From Acidobacteriota bacterium (GTDB taxonomy: Bacteria > Acidobacteriota > Vicinamibacteria > Vicinamibacterales > UBA2999): a DNA stretch of 41,799 bases. The position numbers and the translations under genes are program-made. Positions within the stretch are counted from its first letter, which is position 1. Every line of letters begins with the position of its first letter. Of the stretch, positions 5,444-39,083 are shown one piece after another. The notes under the pieces are model-generated. The model was not told the DNA's origin. It saw only the letters and a list, made by a program, of their open reading frames with translations, and searched no databases. The DNA lies in NCBI GenBank assembly GCA_016213695.1, contig JACQZV010000078.1, forward strand, positions 1 to 41,799, written 5' to 3'.

Positions 5444-7478
<2,035 letters not shown>

Positions 7479-27302: not shown

Positions 27303-28367
27303 CTATCGCCCCCTGGCATCGTCCGCCCGTGCGGGTTCCTGTTGTGTCAGGCAGTGGATGGTCCCCAGTCCCCACACGAGGTCGACCGCATGGATGCCCA
27401 CCACGCGGTGCGACGGCATCAGCTCGGCCAGCGTGTTCAGCGCGACCCGGTCGTTCGGATCGTTGAAGGTCGGCATGAGCACCAGGCCGTTCGCGATGTA
27501 GAAATTTGCGTAGCTGGCCGGCAGCCGCTCCCCGTTCATCACCACGGGACGTGGAAAGGGCAGCCTGACGATCGCCAGGGGTTCCGCGCCGTCCGCCTTC
27601 GAGGCCGCTTCGAGCCGCCGCAGGTTATCCATCGACCGCCCGTGGTTCTCGTCGGCCGGGTCGTCCTCCACTGCCACCACCACGGTGTCCGCGCTCACAA
27701 AGCGCGCGACATCGTCCACATGGCCGTGGGTGTCGTCGCCCACGCACCCCTCGCCCAGCCAGATCGTTTTCCGGACGCCCAGCCAGTCGGCGAAGATGCG
27801 CTCGTAGTCCGCCCGTCCGAGCCCCGGGTTGCGCACCTGAACGTGGCTCAGCAGCCACTCTTCGGTGACGAGCAGCAGCCCCTGGCCGTTGACCTCGAGC
27901 CCGCCGCCTTCGAGCACGATCCGCTCGCCGGTGTCCGGCCGGAGCGGTTCCACCCGGCCGAGGCCGGCGAGCCGGCCGATTGCGGCGCCGACTTCGACGT
28001 CATGCCGCCAGTTCGGGTACTTCGCCCAGCCGTTGAACGACCAGTGCACCAGGATCACCTCGCCGGCGTCGTTGAAGGCCGCCGTTGGCGCTGAGTCGCG
28101 CAGCCAGACGCGATCGGTCAGGACCTGGTGGAGCGTGACGCGGTCGGCCCGCACGCCGTGGGCGTCGAGCGCCAGGCGGGCGCCCTCGAGCACGTCGTGG
28201 TTATGGCAGAGAATTTCGACCGGTTCGTGCTCGGCGAGCTCGCGCGCAATCTCGGCGTACACCCAGGGGATGGCCGCGAGCTTGCCGGGCCAGTCGGGCT
28301 CGTGGTGCGGCCAGGCGATCCATGTCGCCCGGTGCGGTTCCCACTCGGCTGGCATTCGGAAGGGCAT
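27303..28367 (-). CDS. aguA: Agmatine deiminase
   Basis: The enzyme converts agmatine to N-carbamoylputrescine and ammonia. The N-terminus MPAEWEPHRATWIAWPH and the motifs DRVWLRDSAPTA, LEGGGLEVNG and GDDTHGHVDD are those of the guanidino-modifying family. The catalytic cysteine is Cys339 in GLGTIHCLTQQ, which varies slightly from the usual GGGNIHCITQQ. The length of 354 aa is normal. The gene lies downstream of the amidase that uses its product, with a heptad array in the 54-nt gap. Together they make putrescine. Confidence 0.92.
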   Translation of the reverse strand: MPFRMPAEWEPHRATWIAWPHHEPDWPGKLAAIPWVYAEIARELAEHEPVEILCHNHDVLEGARLALDAHGVRADRVTLHQVLTDRVWLRDSAPTAAFNDAGEVILVHWSFNGWAKYPNWRHDVEVGAAIGRLAGLGRVEPLRPDTGERIVLEGGGLEVNGQGLLLVTEEWLLSHVQVRNPGLGRADYERIFADWLGVRKTIWLGEGCVGDDTHGHVDDVARFVSADTVVVAVEDDPADENHGRSMDNLRRLEAASKADGAEPLAIVRLPFPRPVVMNGERLPASYANFYIANGLVLMPTFNDPNDRVALNTLAELMPSHRVVGIHAVDLVWGLGTIHCLTQQEPARADDARGR

Positions 28368-28369
28368 AT

Positions 28370-28404
28370 CAAGTCACAAGTCACAAGTCACAAGTCGCAA
28401 GTCA
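28370..28404 (+). repeat. Heptad repeat, five CAAGTCA-type units
   Basis: Five 7-nt units (one CAAGTCG variant) lie between aguA and the amidase gene. The unit is related to the ACAAGTC variant of the 4372 array. Confidence 0.85.
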
Positions 28405-28419
28405 CAAGACTTGTGACTT
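28399..28419. repeat. Perfect hairpin at the end of the CAAGTCA array
   Basis: AAGTCACAAG and CTTGTGACTT are perfect 10-bp arms around a single A. The stem uses the last repeat unit and ends next to the amidase stop codon. There is no U-tract on the coding strand strong enough to call a terminator. Confidence 0.7.
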
Positions 28420-28421
28420 CT

Positions 28422-29294
28422 TCACACGAGGGACCGTTTGAGGATGGGCCCGTATGCATCGATGCGGCGGTCGCGGAAGAACGGCCAGTTGCGCCGCATG
28501 CTTTCGATCAGGGCGGGGTCGCACTGCGCCGTCACGATCTGTTCGCCCTCGCCGGCTTCCGCCACGTATCGTCCGAACGGATCCGCGATGAAGGAGTGGC
28601 CGAAGAACGTGATGCCGGCGGTTCCCGGCTCGTCCTCATGGCCGACCCGGTTCGGCGCCGCGACGTACACGCCGTTGGCGATCGCGTGCGCGCGCTGAAC
28701 GGTACGCCACGCCTCCACCTGCGCGCGCCCCCACTCGTCCATTTCGGAGGGATGCCAGCCGATGGCCGTGGGGTAGAAGAGCACCTGCGCCCCCATCAAG
28801 GCCGTGATGCGCGCCGCTTCGGGAAACCACTGGTCCCAGCAGATCAGCACGCCGATCGTCGCGTACCGCGTCTTCCACACCCTGAAGCCGCCGGCATCGC
28901 CCGGCGTGAAGTAGTACTTCTCGTGATAGAGCGGATCGTCCGGGATGTGCATCTTCCGGTACACGCCCAGCAGGCTCCCGTCGGCGTCGATGACGGCGGC
29001 GGAGTTGCGATAGACGCCGGCCGCCTGCCGCTCGAAGATCGGGACCACGATCACCACCGCCAGCTCGCGTGCCAGCGCCTGCATGGTTCCGGTCGTGGGG
29101 CCGGGGATCGGTTCGGCGAGATCGAAGCGGTCGGACTGCGGGGACTTGCAGAAGTAGAGCGAGTTGAACAGTTCCTTCAGGCAGATGATCTGCGCCCCGC
29201 GTCGCGCCGCGTCGCGCACGAGGCGCTCGGCGCGCCTGACGTTGCCGGCGATGTCGGCCTCGGCGTGGTCCTGAACGATGCCAATCGTAAACAT
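28422..29294 (-). CDS. aguB: N-carbamoylputrescine amidase (carbon-nitrogen hydrolase)
   Basis: This nitrilase-superfamily amidase hydrolyses N-carbamoylputrescine to putrescine, CO2 and ammonia. The Glu-Lys-Cys triad is Glu41 (CLKELF), Lys114 (YRKMHIP) and Cys152 (GVLICWDQWFPE). The CWDQWFPE block and YHEKYYFTPGD are characteristic of the plant and bacterial carbamoylputrescine branch. The length of 290 aa fits. Pairing with agmatine deiminase directly downstream supports the assignment. A TAGCAT box lies 8 nt before the ATG. Confidence 0.92.
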   Translation of the reverse strand: MFTIGIVQDHAEADIAGNVRRAERLVRDAARRGAQIICLKELFNSLYFCKSPQSDRFDLAEPIPGPTTGTMQALARELAVVIVVPIFERQAAGVYRNSAAVIDADGSLLGVYRKMHIPDDPLYHEKYYFTPGDAGGFRVWKTRYATIGVLICWDQWFPEAARITALMGAQVLFYPTAIGWHPSEMDEWGRAQVEAWRTVQRAHAIANGVYVAAPNRVGHEDEPGTAGITFFGHSFIADPFGRYVAEAGEGEQIVTAQCDPALIESMRRNWPFFRDRRIDAYGPILKRSLV

Positions 29295-31646: not shown

Positions 31647-32899
31647 AATTCGTCGCCGGATTGACGTGCCATCTGTGCGGCGCGAGGTATCCGGCCGAGG
31701 CATCCTGGGTCTGCGCCGAGTGCCTGGGCCCGCTCGAAGTGTCGTATGACTACGCCGCGGTCCGCGGCGCCATCAGCCGCAGCCTGATCGAGTCGCGGCC
31801 GCGTTCGCTCTGGCGATACCTCGAGCTGCTGCCGGTCAGCGAGCCCCGCACCGGATTCGACTCCGGCTTCACGCCGCTCGTTCGCGCCACGCGCCTCGCG
31901 CGCGAGCTGGGCGTCGCCGAGCTGTACCTCAAGGACGACTCGGTCAACCATCCGACGTTCTCGTACAAGGACCGGGTCGTCTCGATTGCGGCGACGCGCG
32001 CGGTGGAGCTCGGCTTCCAGGTGTTCGGGTGTGCATCCACCGGCAATCTCGCCGGCAGCGTCGCCGCGCATGCGGCGCGGCTCGGCCTCGCGTGCTACGT
32101 CTTCATTCCGCACGATCTCGAGCCGGCCAAAGTCCTGGGCGCGGCCATCTACGGGCCGACAGTCGTGTCCGTCGAGGGGAACTACGACGATGTGAACCGG
32201 CTGTGCACCCAGATCGCCGACCGCTACGGCTGGGGATTCGCGAACATCAACCTGCGCGCCTACTACGCGGAAGGCGCCAAGACGATGGCCTTCGAGATTG
32301 CCGAGCAGCTCGGCTGGCGCTTTCCGGATCACGTGGTGTCGCCGGTGGCGGGCGGCACGCTGCTGCCGCGCATCTTCAAGGGCTTCCGCGAGCTGCGCGA
32401 GGTGGGTCTGGTGTCGGGCACGCTGCCGAAGATTCACGCGGCGCAGCCTGCGGGGTCGGCGCCGGTCATCCACGCGCTCGACGCGGGCCTCGAGTTTCCC
32501 GAACCGGTGAAGCCCGACACGATCGCCAAGTCGCTGGCGATCGGCAATCCTGCGGACGGGTTCCAGGTGGTGAAGGTGGTGAAGGAGACCGGCGGGGCAG
32601 GCGCGTCGGCCACTGACGAGGAGATTCTGGATGCGGTCGGGCTGCTGGCGCGGACCGAGGGGATTTTCACCGAACCGGCCGGCGGAACCACGCTGGCGGT
32701 GGCGCGAACGCTGATTCAGCGAGGCGTCATCAAACCGACCGAGTCGGTGGTCATATGCATCACCGGGAACGGCTACAAGACGGCCGAGGTGATGTTCGAC
32801 CGGGTTGCCAGTCCCATCAGAATCGGGCGCAGCCTCGCGGAATTTGAGCGGGCGGTCGGCGCGCGGCTGCCGGCGCGGGCCGCAGGCGCGAGGGCGTAA
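31643..32899 (+). CDS. thrC: Threonine synthase with N-terminal zinc-ribbon-like segment
   Basis: This PLP enzyme converts O-phosphohomoserine to threonine. The PLP lysine is Lys109 in TFSYKDR, and GCASTGNLAGSVAAHAARLG and PVAGGTLLPRI form the cofactor pocket. Residues 9-27 contain CHLC and CAEC, a small zinc-ribbon-like segment found in one class of threonine synthases. The length of 418 aa is normal. A GGGGAG ribosome site and the ATGA overlap with thrB support the start. The gene closes the threonine block. Confidence 0.95.
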   Translation: MKFVAGLTCHLCGARYPAEASWVCAECLGPLEVSYDYAAVRGAISRSLIESRPRSLWRYLELLPVSEPRTGFDSGFTPLVRATRLARELGVAELYLKDDSVNHPTFSYKDRVVSIAATRAVELGFQVFGCASTGNLAGSVAAHAARLGLACYVFIPHDLEPAKVLGAAIYGPTVVSVEGNYDDVNRLCTQIADRYGWGFANINLRAYYAEGAKTMAFEIAEQLGWRFPDHVVSPVAGGTLLPRIFKGFRELREVGLVSGTLPKIHAAQPAGSAPVIHALDAGLEFPEPVKPDTIAKSLAIGNPADGFQVVKVVKETGGAGASATDEEILDAVGLLARTEGIFTEPAGGTTLAVARTLIQRGVIKPTESVVICITGNGYKTAEVMFDRVASPIRIGRSLAEFERAVGARLPARAAGARA

Positions 32900-32925
32900 G
32901 AAAGACGAATCAGGGCTTGGAACGT

Positions 32926-32954
32926 TTGACCATCCCGGCGGTTCGCTATAGAAT
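32926..32954 (+). promoter_or_regulatory. Sigma-70-type promoter of the siroheme/reductase operon
   Basis: TTGACC (32926-32931) and TAGAAT (32949-32954) are spaced by exactly 17 nt. The expected transcription start is near 32961, a few bases before the leader peptide. This is the best full promoter in the window, with the CarD one. Confidence 0.8.
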
Positions 32955-32964
32955 TCAGGCCATC

Positions 32965-33054
32965 GTGTCGAACATGTGCGGTTGCGAGTGCGCCTGTTGT
33001 TGTACGGGGACTCAAGTCCCGGCGCTCTCGGTCCGCCGTGCGGGTAGCGAATAA
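32965..33054 (+). CDS. Cys-rich leader peptide (29 aa) of the attenuator
   Basis: The frame runs from GTG at 32965 to TAA at 33052. It starts MSNMCGCECACCC, with Cys at positions 5, 7, 9, 11, 12 and 13, the last three being consecutive TGT codons. An internal ATG at 32974 is an alternative start that keeps all six. There is no evident Shine-Dalgarno, in keeping with the leaderless habit of this genome. Position and codon content point to a sensing role through Cys-tRNA supply rather than a functional protein. Confidence 0.72.
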   Translation: MSNMCGCECACCCTGTQVPALSVRRAGSE

Positions 33055-33081
33055 GAAGACCCGATAACACGAAACAGATCG

Positions 33082-33118
33082 AAAGCCCGGGACCAAAAGT
33101 CCCGGGCTTTTTTGTTTT
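33082..33118 (+). terminator. Intrinsic terminator before the siroheme operon (attenuator)
   Basis: A perfect 12-bp stem, AAAGCCCGGGAC with GTCCCGGGCTTT, closes a CAAAA loop (33094-33098). TTTTTTGTTTT follows. The next start codon is only 8 nt beyond, so termination here would switch off the whole operon. Confidence 0.93.
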
Positions 33119-33125
33119 GGTGCCC

Positions 33126-33680
33126 ATGTTTCCAGCCTTTCTGAATCTCGCGGCGCGACGGGTGGTCGTGGTTGGCGGCGGACCCGTGGCCGCCGGCAAG
33201 GTCGAGGCGCTTCTCGAGGCCGGCGCCGACGTGACGGTGGTCGCGCCGGACGTGGCGCCCGGGATCGAGCGGCCGGGTGTGACCGTGATCCGCCGGCCGT
33301 TCGACGAGGCGGATCTCGACGGCGCCTGGTGGGTGGTCGCGGCGGCGCCGGGCGACGTGAACCGGCGCGTGCGGGCCGCCGCCGACGCGCGACGGATTTT
33401 CGTCAACGCCGTGGACGACCCGCAGCACGCGACTGCCTATCTCGGTGGCGTCGTCCGGCGCGACGGCGTGACGGTGGCGATCTCGACCGACGGCCGCGCG
33501 CCGGCGCTCGCAGGGCTGCTGCGCGAGGCGCTCGACGCATGGCTGCCGCGGGACATCGATGAATGGCTGTCGGCCGCCGAGGCCGCCCGCCGGGACTGGA
33601 AGGCGCAGCACGTGCCGATGGAGCGCCGGCGTCCCCAGCTCCTCGAGACGCTGAACAGGTTGTATGCCGAACGCCGCTAG
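33126..33680 (+). CDS. Precorrin-2 dehydrogenase / sirohydrochlorin ferrochelatase (siroheme branch)
   Basis: This short (184 aa) Met8/CysG-N-type protein oxidises precorrin-2 to sirohydrochlorin and can insert iron to make siroheme. The N-terminal NAD-binding motif VVVVGGGPVAAGKVEALLEAGADVTVVAP is diagnostic. FVNAVDDPQHATAYLGGVVRRDGVTVAISTDGRAPALAG is the family's central block. The start ATG is 8 nt after the terminator U-tract. The stop overlaps the next gene by 17 nt. The function fits siroheme supply for the reductase two genes downstream. Confidence 0.92.
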   Translation: MFPAFLNLAARRVVVVGGGPVAAGKVEALLEAGADVTVVAPDVAPGIERPGVTVIRRPFDEADLDGAWWVVAAAPGDVNRRVRAAADARRIFVNAVDDPQHATAYLGGVVRRDGVTVAISTDGRAPALAGLLREALDAWLPRDIDEWLSAAEAARRDWKAQHVPMERRRPQLLETLNRLYAERR

Positions 33681-34470
33681 GGTGTCGCTCGTCGGCGCCG
33701 GGCCGGGCGATCCGGATCTCTGGACGGTGCGCGCGGTGCGCCGGCTCGAAGAGGCCGACCTGGTGCTGTACGACGCGCTCGTCGATGCCGACGCGCTGCG
33801 GCGCGTGACCAGGGCCCAGTGCTTCTGCGTGGGCAAGCGCGCGCGCCGCGACAGCGTGCCGCAGGAGACGATTCACCGGCTGATGATTCGAGCCGCAAAG
33901 CAGGGCAAGCGCGTCGTGCGGTTGAAGGGCGGCGATCCGTTCGTGTTCGGCCGCGGCGGCGAGGAAGCGCTGGCGCTGGCCGCGGCCGGTATCCCGTTCG
34001 AGGTCGTGCCGGGTGTCACGACTGCGGTGGCCGCGCCCGGGCTGGCGGGGATTCCCGTGACGCACCGGGGCCTGGCGTCCGGGTTTCTCGTGCTCGCCGG
34101 ACATACGTCGGCGTCGGTGGACAACGTGCTCGCCTCGGTGCGGCCGAACAGCGTGTCGGTGGTGATGCTGATGGGCGTCGGGGCGCGGGGCGAGCTGGCG
34201 TCGCAGCTTGTGGCGCACGGCTGGTCGCCCGCGACGCCCGCCGCGATCGTCTGCGAGGCGTCCACGCCGCGTGAGTGGACGTGGACCGGGCGGCTCGACG
34301 GGTTGGGCGGCGCCGAATCGCCTGCCGGAGCGACCGGTGTGCTGGTGATTGGTGAAGTCGTACGGGTTCGGGACGCGCTGGCGGTCGCATCGCGGTCTGC
34401 CGCACGTGAGGACAGCGCCGTCGCGGACACCCCGGGCGCAGACAACGAGGTGAAGTATGGCCGTGTTTGA
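33664..34470 (+). CDS. cobA: Uroporphyrinogen-III C-methyltransferase
   Basis: This SAM-dependent enzyme methylates uroporphyrinogen III at C2 and C7 to give precorrin-2, the entry to siroheme and B12. Motifs are VSLVGAGPGDPDLWT, LVDADALRR, RLKGGDPFVFGRGGEEA and PGVTTAVAAPGLAGIPVTHRG. The 268-aa length matches the stand-alone SUMT. It overlaps its neighbours on both sides by 14-17 nt, so the three genes form one tightly coupled operon. It could be called sumT; no isobacteriochlorin-specific features are seen. Confidence 0.93.
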   Translation: MPNAARVSLVGAGPGDPDLWTVRAVRRLEEADLVLYDALVDADALRRVTRAQCFCVGKRARRDSVPQETIHRLMIRAAKQGKRVVRLKGGDPFVFGRGGEEALALAAAGIPFEVVPGVTTAVAAPGLAGIPVTHRGLASGFLVLAGHTSASVDNVLASVRPNSVSVVMLMGVGARGELASQLVAHGWSPATPAAIVCEASTPREWTWTGRLDGLGGAESPAGATGVLVIGEVVRVRDALAVASRSAAREDSAVADTPGADNEVKYGRV

Positions 34471-36286
34471 TCAGGCGACCGCCGTCGGCCGCGATCGTCT
34501 CTCCTTTGCCGAGGAGCACGACATCGACGAGTTCGTCGACACGCTCGGCAAGTTCGAGCGGGGCGAGATCTCGGCCGAGGACTGGCGTAAGTTCCGTCTG
34601 GTGCGCGGCACCTACGGGCAGCGCCAGCCGGAAGCCGTGCACATGATGCGCGTGAAGATTCCGCAGGGCATCCTCACGTCCGCGCAGCTGCGTGCGCTGG
34701 CCGGCGTCGCCACCAGTTACTCGCGCGGCTTCGGCCACATCACCACGCGGCAGAACGTGCAGTTTCACTTCGTGCCTCTGGCCGACGTCGAGCCGGCCAT
34801 GCGGACGCTGGCCGACACCGGGCTCACCACGCGCGAGGCCTGCGGCAACTCGGTGCGGAATATCACGGCGTGCCCGTATGCCGGCGTGGCCGAGGACGAA
34901 ATCTTCGACGTGACGCCGTACGCCGAGGCGATGACCCGCTATTTCCTGCGCCATCCGCTGTCGGCGTCGCTGCCGCGCAAGTTCAAGATTGCCTTCGAAG
35001 GGTGCCCCGAGGATCACGCGGTGGCGGCCATTCACGACATCGGCTGGCGCGCCCGCATCGTCGACGGCCGGCGCGGCTTCCGGGTCACGGTCGGCGGCGG
35101 CACCGCGATTCTCGTCAACTCCGGGACGCTGCTCTACGACTTCCTTCCGGCGGACGAGATGCTCAACGTCGCGGAGGCGATCGTCCGCGTGTTCCACCGG
35201 CTGGGCGACCGGACGCACATGCAGCGGAACCGGATGAAGTTTCTCATCAGGTCGATCGGCTGGGACCAGTGGCGCGCCCGGTTCGACGAGGCGCTCGCCG
35301 GATTCCGCGCCGAAGGCGGCGCGACGCTGCCGTTTGCCACCGATGCGGCGCCCGTCGAGCAGGCGCCGGGCTGGGCGAAGCCGGCGCCGCCGACGCCGCA
35401 GATGGCCGCGGCGCTGGCGCAGACCGACGTCAGAGGTCCCGGCATCGTTCCGGGGAGCGTCCGGCTGCAGACGCTGCCCGACGCGTACGTCTGCTGGACG
35501 CAGCACAACGTTCGCCGCCAGCGGCAGGCGGGATACGTCTCGGTGACCGCGCGTCTGCCGCTCGGCGACTTCACCGCCGGGCAGGCCATGGTGCTCGCCG
35601 ACCTCGCCGAGGCGTACGGCGACGGGACGGTGCGCCTCACAATCGAGCAGAACGTGGTGTTCCGGTGGGTGGCGGCAAAGGCGGTGCAGGGCCTGTACGA
35701 CCGTCTGGATGCGGCCGGTCTGGCGGCGGGTGGCGCCGGCACGATCGCGGACGTGACAAGCTGCCCGGGCGCGGAGACGTGCCGGCTGGCCGTCACGCAG
35801 TCGCGCGGGCTCGGCCGTGTGCTCACGGAGTATCTGAGCGCCCATCCCGAGCTGGTGTTCGCGGTGCCGTCCGGCGACATCAAGATCAGCGGCTGCCCGA
35901 ACGGCTGCGGGCAGCATCACATCGCCGCCATCGGCTTCCAGGGGAGCGTCCGCAAGGTGGCCGGCAAGGCCGTGCCCCAGTATTTCGTGCTGGTCGGCGG
36001 TGGCATCACCGACAGCGGCGCGCACTTCGGCACGGTCGTCTCGAAAATTCCGGTGAACCGGCTGACCGACGCGCTGGACCGGCTCGTGGGGCTCTACCGC
36101 GACCAGCGGCAGGGCGGCGAGTCACTCGGCGCATTCTTCCGGCGCGTGCCGCCGGCGGTGGCCACCGACGCGCTCCAGGACCTGGCCGTGGTCCGGGCCG
36201 AGGGACTGACGGCCGGCGATTACGTCGATCTCGGCGAAACCCGGACGTTCGCGCCCGAGGTGATGGACGGAGAGTGCGCGTCCTAG
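34457..36286 (+). CDS. Siroheme 4Fe-4S sulfite/nitrite reductase
   Basis: The enzyme makes a six-electron reduction of sulfite to sulfide or nitrite to ammonia, with ferredoxin as the likely donor. It has two ferredoxin-like (parachute) domains and two siroheme/cluster-binding halves. Cluster and siroheme ligands are TSCPGAETC (Cys436, Cys442) and SGCPNGCGQ (Cys480, Cys484). GHITTRQNVQFH and RLTIEQNVVFR mark the active-site basic region. At 609 aa it is of family length. The upstream Cys-rich leader favours sulfite as the physiological substrate; sequence alone does not settle it. Confidence 0.9.
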   Translation: MAVFDQATAVGRDRLSFAEEHDIDEFVDTLGKFERGEISAEDWRKFRLVRGTYGQRQPEAVHMMRVKIPQGILTSAQLRALAGVATSYSRGFGHITTRQNVQFHFVPLADVEPAMRTLADTGLTTREACGNSVRNITACPYAGVAEDEIFDVTPYAEAMTRYFLRHPLSASLPRKFKIAFEGCPEDHAVAAIHDIGWRARIVDGRRGFRVTVGGGTAILVNSGTLLYDFLPADEMLNVAEAIVRVFHRLGDRTHMQRNRMKFLIRSIGWDQWRARFDEALAGFRAEGGATLPFATDAAPVEQAPGWAKPAPPTPQMAAALAQTDVRGPGIVPGSVRLQTLPDAYVCWTQHNVRRQRQAGYVSVTARLPLGDFTAGQAMVLADLAEAYGDGTVRLTIEQNVVFRWVAAKAVQGLYDRLDAAGLAAGGAGTIADVTSCPGAETCRLAVTQSRGLGRVLTEYLSAHPELVFAVPSGDIKISGCPNGCGQHHIAAIGFQGSVRKVAGKAVPQYFVLVGGGITDSGAHFGTVVSKIPVNRLTDALDRLVGLYRDQRQGGESLGAFFRRVPPAVATDALQDLAVVRAEGLTAGDYVDLGETRTFAPEVMDGECAS

Positions 36287-38431: not shown

Positions 38432-38460
38432 CATGTTGGTCATCTAAAATGACCAACATG
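38432..38460. promoter_or_regulatory. 12-bp inverted-repeat operator over the toxin-antitoxin promoter
   Basis: CATGTTGGTCAT and ATGACCAACATG are perfect inverted repeats separated by CTAAA. TAAAAT (38445-38450) lies at the centre as the likely -10, 7 nt before the ATG at 38458. Binding of the antitoxin here would block its own promoter, the usual autoregulation of type II modules. Confidence 0.85.
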
Positions 38461-38700
38461 GGTACGCGGACGAAGCGGACGCACCAGTACAACGTCGGCG
38501 AAGCCAAAGCGCGTCTGCCGCAGCTCGTGCGCGAAACGCTGGCCGGCGACGACGTCGTCATCGCGAAGGACAACAAGCCCCTTGTCAAGCTGGTGCCGGT
38601 ATCTGGAGGCCAGCGAAAGCCCGGGACCGGTAAGGGGCTGATCCTGTACATGTCACCCGATTTTGACGCGCCACTCGAGGATTTCGAAGACTACATGTGA
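38458..38700 (+). CDS. Type II antitoxin, Phd/YefM-like
   Basis: This is an 80-aa antitoxin-like protein. The N-terminal half (YNVGEAKARLPQLVRETLAGDDVVIAKDNKPLVKLVPV) matches the Phd/YefM DNA-binding fold. The C-terminal acidic tail (SPDFDAPLEDFEDYM) would wrap around the toxin. The ATG at 38458 is chosen over the one at 38449 because it lies 7 nt after TAAAAT, and the earlier ATG falls inside that box. The stop overlaps the toxin start (TGATG). A perfect palindrome overlaps the promoter. Confidence 0.88.
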   Translation: MGTRTKRTHQYNVGEAKARLPQLVRETLAGDDVVIAKDNKPLVKLVPVSGGQRKPGTGKGLILYMSPDFDAPLEDFEDYM

Positions 38701-39083
38701 TGGGGGTGCTGCTCGACACGCACGCGTTCCTCTGGTGGTTCCAGGACGATCGCCGGTTGTCGCAACCGGCCCGCGAGGCCATCGCGGACGCGACGGAAGG
38801 GTTTCTCAGCATCGCGAGTTGCTGGGAAATTGCCATCAAGGTGAGTCGCAGGAAGCTCACGCTCGCCAAGCCGATTGAGCGAGTGGTACCAGAGCAGCTC
38901 GGCCTGAACGGGTTTCAGCTGCTCCCGGTCGATCTCGACGATGTGGCTCGCGTGGCCGCGCTGCCGTTCCACCATCGGGACCCATTCGATCGCGTGCTCG
39001 CCGCGCAGGCCCTCAGCGACGAGCTCACGATCGTGTCGGCGGATCCGATCTTCAGAAAGTACGGGGTGAGACGGGTCTGGTAG
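38700..39083 (+). CDS. PIN-domain toxin (VapC-like)
   Basis: This is a PIN-domain ribonuclease toxin of 127 aa. The acidic site is typical: Asp6 in LLDTHAFLWW, a Glu in SCWEIAIKV, and the Asp residues of HRDPFDRVLAAQAL and SADPIF. Such toxins cleave RNA or tRNA when the antitoxin is degraded. The start overlaps the antitoxin stop by one base; a GTG at 38697 is a possible alternative. The stop is inside a heptad repeat. This is a typical accessory module. Confidence 0.9.
   Translation: MGVLLDTHAFLWWFQDDRRLSQPAREAIADATEGFLSIASCWEIAIKVSRRKLTLAKPIERVVPEQLGLNGFQLLPVDLDDVARVAALPFHHRDPFDRVLAAQALSDELTIVSADPIFRKYGVRRVW

Follow-up and report, generated by a model that had tools for sequence, protein, structure and literature searches.

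A probable cysteine-codon transcription attenuator before the sirC-cobA-nirA operon of Acidobacteriota

Results

Genes and leader features of the locus

The window analysed here is a stretch of 41,799 nt and lies in contig 20 of the genome assembly of an Acidobacteriota bacterium, probably of the order Vicinamibacterales (G000; 3.75 Mb, 203 contigs, 90.6% complete). Its forward strand carries sirC (cysG N-terminal domain, precorrin-2 dehydrogenase; 33126-33680; PF13241, TIGR01470 above cut-off) as the first gene of an operon, cobA (cysG C-terminal domain, uroporphyrinogen-III C-methyltransferase; 33664-34470; PF00590, TIGR01469 above cut-off) and a gene for a ferredoxin-type sulfite/nitrite reductase of the NirA family (34457-36286; PF01077, PF03460). 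A siroheme/sulfite reductase operon had been proposed in a preliminary description of this DNA, and the three sets of domains agree with it, the sulfite part being read from the context of relatives. Against NCBIfam, the equivalogs listed for the window NirA all scored below cut-off, leaving sulfite versus nitrite undecided, and we read the enzyme as an assimilatory sulfite reductase because the operons of some relatives hold cysH, sat-cysC or TauE. Siroheme synthesis and sulfite reduction lead to cysteine, the end product that matches the codons of the leader.

The leader element is located on the forward strand between thrC, whose stop is at 32899, and sirC. It begins with a -35 box (TTGACC, 32926-32931) and a -10 box (TAGAAT, 32949-32954) spaced by 17 nt, which form the top promoter by simple consensus count within the 110 nt preceding the Cys run. 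A GTG start 10 nt downstream of the -10 box opens the leader peptide frame (32965-33054; VSNMCGCECACCCTGTQVPALSVRRAGSE; TAA stop at 33052-33054), in which an ATG at 32974 is an alternative start. Cysteine occupies codons 5, 7, 9, 11, 12 and 13 of this frame, as TGC at 32977, 32983 and 32989 and as three consecutive TGT at 32995-33003; these probable regulatory codons have their counterparts in the Cys runs of relatives. Further downstream follow a hairpin enclosing the stop codon (33037-33071, with 33037-33045 pairing with 33059-33071), supported by the fold and by an alignment of the close family, and an intrinsic terminator with a perfect 12-bp stem (33082-33110; 33082-33093 with 33099-33110). 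The U-tract spans 33108-33118, with a T-run reaching 33113 and TTTT at 33115-33118, and the probable sirC start is the ATG at 33126. The promoter, the short frame with its six Cys codons and the terminator with its U-run before the first gene were all part of the preliminary description and are borne out by the sequence, base for base.

Three alternative pairings can be drawn between these landmarks. Segment 1 (32985-33011) consists of the Cys-codon stretch and GGGAC, pairs with 33016-33030 in the minimum free energy (MFE) fold and covaries with segment 2 in the representative leaders described below. According to folding and swap tests, segment 2 (33016-33033) has either segment 1 or segment 3 as its partner. 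Segment 3 (33077-33093) would be the 3' arm of an antiterminator with 16 pairs to segment 2, as seen in the fold and the swap tests, and includes the terminator 5' arm (33082-33093), which therefore does double duty. The early hairpin that had been noticed at 33007-33020 is present (GGGAC/GTCCC, 33007-33011 with 33016-33020), but as a stand-alone element it is weakly supported in relatives. Likewise, GTCCCGG at 33016-33022 is fully complementary to CCGGGAC at 33087-33093, as had been described, but this competing pairing is part of an antiterminator of 16 pairs rather than 7.

When positions 32600-33500 of the window were searched at the DNA level against the own genome, the matches were the query itself and two short, weak ones to parts of sirC, and there was no second copy. 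Scans around seven other loci for PLP enzymes in this genome found no leader, and PF01507 (cysH/cysD) had no match in the assembly, which is 90.6% complete, although it contains the reductase operon. With the Rfam 15 covariance models at gathering score, the window and 18 relative loci gave tRNA matches only. Elsewhere in the window, a small ORF overlaps a PIN-domain gene (PF01850) at 38449-39083 in a toxin-antitoxin-like layout; Pfam gave no domain for the small ORF at E 1e-5. On the reverse strand, at 27303-29294, a PAD_porph gene (PF04371) adjoins a carbon-nitrogen hydrolase gene (PF00795), a pair which we take to resemble the agmatine-to-putrescine pathway.

Folding of the window leader

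The leader RNA of the window was predicted to fold more stably than its dinucleotide shuffles (z -5.08), none of 200 doing better, and its ribosome-free MFE fold combines the 1:2 pairing with the terminator at -71.1 kcal/mol. Stalling was modelled by masking 11 nt past the A-site codon. Whichever of the three TGT codons the ribosome was placed on, and with the complete terminator sequence present, the best predicted fold (-40.2 kcal/mol) was the antiterminator, in which 33016-33033 pairs with 33077-33093 and the loop holds the stop-codon hairpin. The model thus reproduces the earlier proposal that a stall over segment 1 frees segment 2, except that segment 1 consists mainly of the Cys stretch at 32985-33011. 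When the ribosome was placed at the stop codon, the predicted fold contained the terminator; all upstream bases were masked here, so that this state is silent on 1:2 pairing behind the ribosome. In the ribosome-free leader whose terminator 3' arm is not yet made, 2:3 was likewise the best fold, and the outcome in that state therefore hangs on kinetics or translation.

RNAalifold on alignment A3 also paired the leader start (consensus GTGTTG; window 32965-32970) with a conserved CAACAC (33065-33070). This pairing competes with the stop-codon hairpin and could mask the start codon once the leader has been translated a first time.

Occurrence among relatives

Among the 59 genomes nearest to that of the window, 40 had a nirA homologue (E up to 0.001); at E up to 1e-60, 79 of 162 genomes from the order had one, as did 65 of 396 from the phylum, the own genome being included in each count. 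The stretches upstream of these homologues, the window included, made up a sample of 90 sequences. A strict scan, defined by an intrinsic terminator and a preceding short ORF that has adjacent Cys codons and, within 15 codons, no fewer than 3 Cys, was positive in 55 of them. One leader with single Cys codons (L040) was added by eye. A relaxed scan covered 29 of the 35 strict negatives (those outside it being L040, L062, L114, L120, L121 and L122) and yielded eight matches, five of which were kept (L035, L042, L048, L097 and L105). The matches in L055 and L060 were set aside by position, within the coding sequence of sirC or cobA, and that in L084 for a weak stem and a U-tract that was not clear.

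A Cys leader with a terminator was found in a total of 61 of the 90 sequences: 48 of 68 in the order (including the window), 3 of 3 in the rest of the class and 10 of 19 in the rest of the phylum. Both the Cys codons and the terminator, whose retention in relatives was the comparison that the preliminary description had pointed to, are accordingly kept in these 61 homologous sequences. The scans found no leader in the other 29, at least four of which (L062, L074, L087 and L088) have less than 1 kb upstream of nirA. Sense-strand terminators of the 90 sequences were accompanied by a Cys leader in 56 of 68 cases, and antisense terminators in 4 of 12, three of these belonging to divergent genes (L049, L064 and L091); the antisense strict match in L120 is regarded as probably due to chance.

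Short ORFs with at least three consecutive Cys codons preceded 49 of the 68 sense-strand terminators, compared with 8 of 445 random positions (89 sequences). Leu runs before terminators (27/68) were taken as out-of-frame shadows of TGY runs, because the other frames have no suitably placed starts. The longest runs comprise seven consecutive Cys codons (L101 and L103). Runs of 3 to 7 consecutive Cys codons are seen in L100-L103 and L197, of which L197 and the contig of L103 are titled gp22. Judged by sequence comparison, the putative attenuator is common before the nirA operons of Acidobacteriota. Sampling was almost entirely upstream of nirA homologues, which defines the scope of the regulon considered here, and the tie to sulfur genes is therefore partly built in.

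Genomic context of the leaders

By BLAST to the window proteins or by eye, the leaders precede sirC-cobA-nirA. Other operons, assigned by Pfam, also carry them, with TauE (L047, L069 and L107) or cysH (L100) as the first gene; in L096 the leader stands before a cysH-sat-cysC reading frame and in L104 before nirA itself. In sequences whose thrC directly adjoins sirC, the position of the leader varied: it preceded thrC in L059, lay further upstream in L042 and stood between sirC and cobA in L035, and the scans found none in three sequences with this arrangement (L037, L043 and L060). In L091, a divergent operon with a JAB-fused cysteine synthase gene and a PAPS_reduct (cysD-like) gene by Pfam has a Cys leader of its own. 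The JAB-fused cysteine synthase gene lies on the strand opposite to the nirA operon (L091:3284-4654, +) and is accompanied by its own Cys leader and terminator. The same divergent arrangement was seen by eye in L049 (3633-3719, +) and on the opposite strand of L064.

Translation signals and codon use

The tests of frame, promoter and pairing used the strict-scan set together with leaders added by hand (L040, L173, L180, L187, L176, three divergent leaders and nine named loci), 72 in all; L173, L180, L187 and L176 were added after their spacing had been noticed. L176 was left out of the frame-placement set because no terminator was found, and 71 leaders remained. As the leaders were picked by a scan, the openness of the Cys frame is partly built in, while the distances of start and stop lie outside the selection. 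An ATG or GTG 6-12 nt past the -10 box was present in the Cys frame of 48/71 leaders and in 0/71 for each of the other two frames. A stop 20-36 nt before the terminator stem was found in the Cys frame of 63/71, compared with 11/71 and 24/71 in the other frames.

In the 43 representatives, the mean promoter score, a simple consensus count, peaked at a distance of 9-10 nt between -10 box and start; the distance in the window is 10 nt. The best distance was 6-11 nt in 28 of the 43, where about 6 were expected from a test that shuffles single bases. Transcription initiates about 7 nt after the -10 box, and together with these distances this leaves a 5' untranslated part of 0-4 nt. The leader is thus probably leaderless or nearly so, as far as promoter motifs can tell. 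L101, L103, L197 (21 nt) and several others did not fit the short distance, and L101, L103 and L197 are perhaps not leaderless.

Across the 55 leaders of the strict scan, 187 of the 323 Cys codons are TGT, compared with 77 of 443 in their sirC, cobA, nirA and thrC genes, where TGT is the less used of the two. The operon genes of the window contain 12 TGC and no TGT.

Pairing logic

For the swap test, the duplex energies of each leader's own partners were compared with those of swapped partners in 43 representatives (less than 62% identity within the 50 nt past the Cys run), using 20,000 permutations. The pairings of the Cys region with segment 2 (1:2; z -8.3), of segment 2 with the terminator 5' arm (2:3; z -8.1) and between the terminator arms (3:4; z -16.5) were each favoured, with 0/20,000 permutations reaching the observed value, p-values that, like those of the shuffles, ignore shared descent beyond the 62% limit. 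The control pairings 1:3 (z +2.4) and 2:4 (z +1.8) were not favoured and 1:4 only slightly (z -2.0). Compensatory change in 1:2, 2:3 and 3:4, the further comparison that the preliminary description had pointed to, is thus detected among the 43 representatives, while 1:3 and 2:4 do not covary.

The Cys-codon stretch by itself also matched segment 2 (z -7.0), while the bases just past the run were weak (z -2.16; 359/20,000). The local hairpin just past the Cys run, which had served as 1:2 in the preliminary description, had a mean z of -0.36 against shuffles, with 9 of the 43 representatives below -1. Being no better than shuffles and weak in the swap test, it was rejected as the main 1:2 pairing.

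Support for 2:3 was uneven among loci. Thirteen of the 43 representatives ranked in the best tenth, while L064, L161, L173 and L202 were worse than most swaps; against dinucleotide shuffles, p 0.05 was reached in 20 of 55 loci. In the close family of eight sequences, 93% of cells pair in both folds, compared with 22-53% when slid, and double changes occur at four pairs of the terminator fold and two of the antiterminator fold. Both of the latter sit in the stop-codon hairpin, the 2:3 helix of this family having no double change, and the covariation score of the whole antiterminator was equalled by 104 of 500 shuffles, so that the close family alone is not decisive on the antiterminator. Compensating changes in 2:3 are visible only between families. 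On these comparisons, the mutually exclusive pairings 1:2, 2:3 and 3:4 appear to be kept by compensating change, as classical attenuators require.

Leaders beyond the order

The wider sample consisted of 80 named genome contigs, the best 80 of at least 573 confirmed reductase matches. Contigs with relatives of the reductase were mostly metagenome-assembled genomes (MAGs), and many of the closest were titled Acidobacteria, including gp6 AA38 and SCN 69-37. The strict scan upstream of the reductase was positive in 16 of the 80, seven of which look like contigs already used. The nine further positives include Acidobacteria of gp2 (L161 and L167), gp13 (L209) and gp22 (L197) and one of the Terriglobia (L199), next to two Acidobacteria MAGs (L162 and L178), a Bacteroidetes-labelled MAG (L191, LCCACCCC) and a Chloroflexota MAG (L202, LCCMC), with the caution that MAG labels in this sample may be wrong. 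In three Chloroflexi (L173, L180 and L187), short leaders with two Cys codons each (KCVC, KCVC and TCAC) were seen by eye, and the order of promoter, start and terminator, suggestively, follows that of the other leaders; the 2:3 pairing is poor in L173 and L202. None of 20 loci titled Myxococcota or Deltaproteobacteria groups was positive in the strict scan, some of their stretches being short. According to these comparisons, many distant relatives appear to have the same kind of switch before the same operon, in diverged sequence.

In another Acidobacteria MAG (L176, about 5750-5850), the leader MFSLCSKTMCLMCCCR stops directly after the Cys run. The scan found no terminator in L176, which possibly represents another mode of control.

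Discussion

A proposed mechanism

According to our analysis, the element before sirC-cobA-nirA is very probably a transcription attenuator that works through the ribosome and senses charged tRNA-Cys. The comparison of relatives shows the Cys frame, the placement of its start and stop, the pairings and the genomic context. Transcription would begin at the GTG at 32965 or up to about 4 nt ahead of it, and we infer that ribosomes enter the emerging transcript directly at its 5' end. When Cys-tRNA is scarce, the ribosome would stall on the Cys codons at 32977-33003 and cover segment 1. Segment 2 (33016-33033) would then be free to pair with segment 3 (33077-33093), a switch in fold that the stall model predicts; the terminator would be blocked and sirC-cobA-nirA transcribed, allowing more sulfide and cysteine to be made. 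When Cys-tRNA is plentiful, the ribosome would reach the stop at 33052, inside the antiterminator loop, where it would block 2:3 pairing while present, and 1:2 could form behind it. Segments 3 and 4 would then form the terminator, and transcription would end near 33113. Cys-tRNA as the signal, leaderless initiation and the direction of regulation are what these features suggest in combination. The switch appears to let these soil bacteria turn on the genes from sulfite to cysteine only at low cysteine. Four points go beyond the preliminary description: the Cys stretch as the main part of segment 1, the greater length of the antiterminator, the start codon about 10 nt past the -10 box, and the frequency of the element before nirA operons elsewhere in the phylum.

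Alternative explanations

The placement of the element directly after thrC (stop at 32899) would also be expected of an ordinary post-operon terminator. It might simply end the upstream hom-thrB-thrC transcript, with a constitutive sirC operon and an incidental Cys frame. We consider this very unlikely, since a promoter is present between thrC and the terminator, and since leaders with terminators occur where no thrC match was found upstream of sirC (for example L045, L046, L051, L052 and L057) as well as before operons starting with cysH, a cysH-sat-cysC frame or TauE. In L059 the leader precedes an operon of thrC and sirC, in L035 it stands between sirC and cobA, and Cys runs before terminators are far more frequent than at random positions (49/68 vs 8/445). 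Regulation might instead be exerted by Rho or at the level of sirC translation, a mode of control that has been proposed for the poly-Cys frames of mycobacteria, with the hairpin as a by-product. Leaderless poly-Cys frames of mycobacteria have indeed been reported as attenuators, and the leader of L176 ends in MCCCR* where the scan found no terminator. Against such control, a terminator with a U-tract follows 71 of the 72 collected leaders, most of which were selected for having one, and the stop codon and the segments hold set positions with respect to the terminator; this explanation, too, has very little probability in our view.

A third explanation retains the RNA switch and places the sensor in the nascent peptide, where metal binding or a reaction with oxidants would arrest the ribosome. 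The CGCECACCC pattern of the window peptide could bind metal, and a nascent exported protein has been reported to signal copper through translational control (PMC9973294). However, the spacing and neighbours of the cysteines vary widely among leaders (MRGACCCR, CCCCCCC and KCVC), while the leaders preserve which codon is used and where it lies with respect to the RNA segments. The bias towards TGT fits decoding better than peptide chemistry, and the operons found are those of sulfur assimilation, though the loci were picked by nirA. We therefore regard a peptide sensor as improbable, if somewhat less so than the two preceding explanations, and retain the sensing of charged tRNA-Cys as our preferred reading.

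Wider significance

Beyond the single operon we posit only tentatively, and with rather more doubt than confidence, that sulfur assimilation in nirA-bearing Acidobacteriota has its ancient and principal regulator in a leaderless attenuator sensing Cys-tRNA. It would control more than one sulfur operon per genome, as where divergent cysK and sirC operons each have their own leader, and would be found, along with the ferredoxin sulfite reductase, in Chloroflexota and some Bacteroidota as well. Almost any change of its sequence would be tolerated, with codon identity, the placement of start and stop and the 1-2-3-4 pairing logic kept.

Acidobacteriota are abundant in soil. According to a 2010 survey (PMC2965389), hardly any of the attenuators predicted in this phylum had a function, and the element would supply one for a core nutrient pathway, read out at the level of codons and with a geometry open to test. 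It would add a probably leaderless, cysteine-specific form of four-segment attenuation, bearing on how ribosome and polymerase are paced given ribosome loading at the 5' end. The primary sequence drifts freely, and family-based RNA searches of the window and 18 relative loci therefore missed these leaders; many more could come to light in scans that look for the codon run, the position of the stop and the pairing logic. Among the matches listed in a search of the open-licence PMC literature, no cysteine attenuator was found for Acidobacteriota or before a sulfite reductase operon.

Comparison with known systems

The classical trp, his, leu and thr attenuators of enterobacteria combine a leader rich in codons for the end product, mutually exclusive 1:2, 2:3 and 3:4 pairings and an intrinsic terminator before the first gene. 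The element described here resembles them in its end-product codons, its four exclusive segments and its terminator before the first gene, and differs in the amino acid, cysteine, in its probable leaderless start and in the phylum, Acidobacteriota. The stop codon is also placed differently: in trp-type leaders it lies between segments 1 and 2, whereas here it follows segment 2 inside the antiterminator loop.

Poly-Cys short ORFs of mycobacteria, reported earlier (PMC4633059), have been presented as leaderless attenuators (Canestrari 2020, PMC8764745, as represented in texts that cite it) and described as acting by translation attenuation (PMC13236596). Like them, our element has a Cys-rich upstream ORF with genes of cysteine metabolism downstream; by promoter motif, this ORF would probably be leaderless as well. 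Unlike the mycobacterial attenuator, it has a 12-bp terminator with a U-tract in the window and terminators in relatives, while a comparative study detected no conserved terminator hairpins before mycobacterial cys operons (PMC1262725). In the uORFC-8-2 motif of Rhodobacterales, a uORF that carries Cys codons in tandem is combined with two stems and a U-run terminator, and ribosome-mediated attenuation has been proposed for it (PMC8632094). This alphaproteobacterial motif, with its Cys pair usually at codons 14-15, is described there as lying exclusively upstream of cysS (PMC8632094); it shares with our element the Cys-codon uORF and the U-run terminator, and differs in that the genes of the window are sirC, cobA and nirA. 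In the transcription attenuator trpL of Sinorhizobium meliloti, the ATG of the leader ORF is the 5' end of the RNA (PMC7298713). That system responds to another amino acid, Trp, in an alphaproteobacterium, and its likeness to the element described here lies in the start at the RNA 5' end, which is probable in our case.
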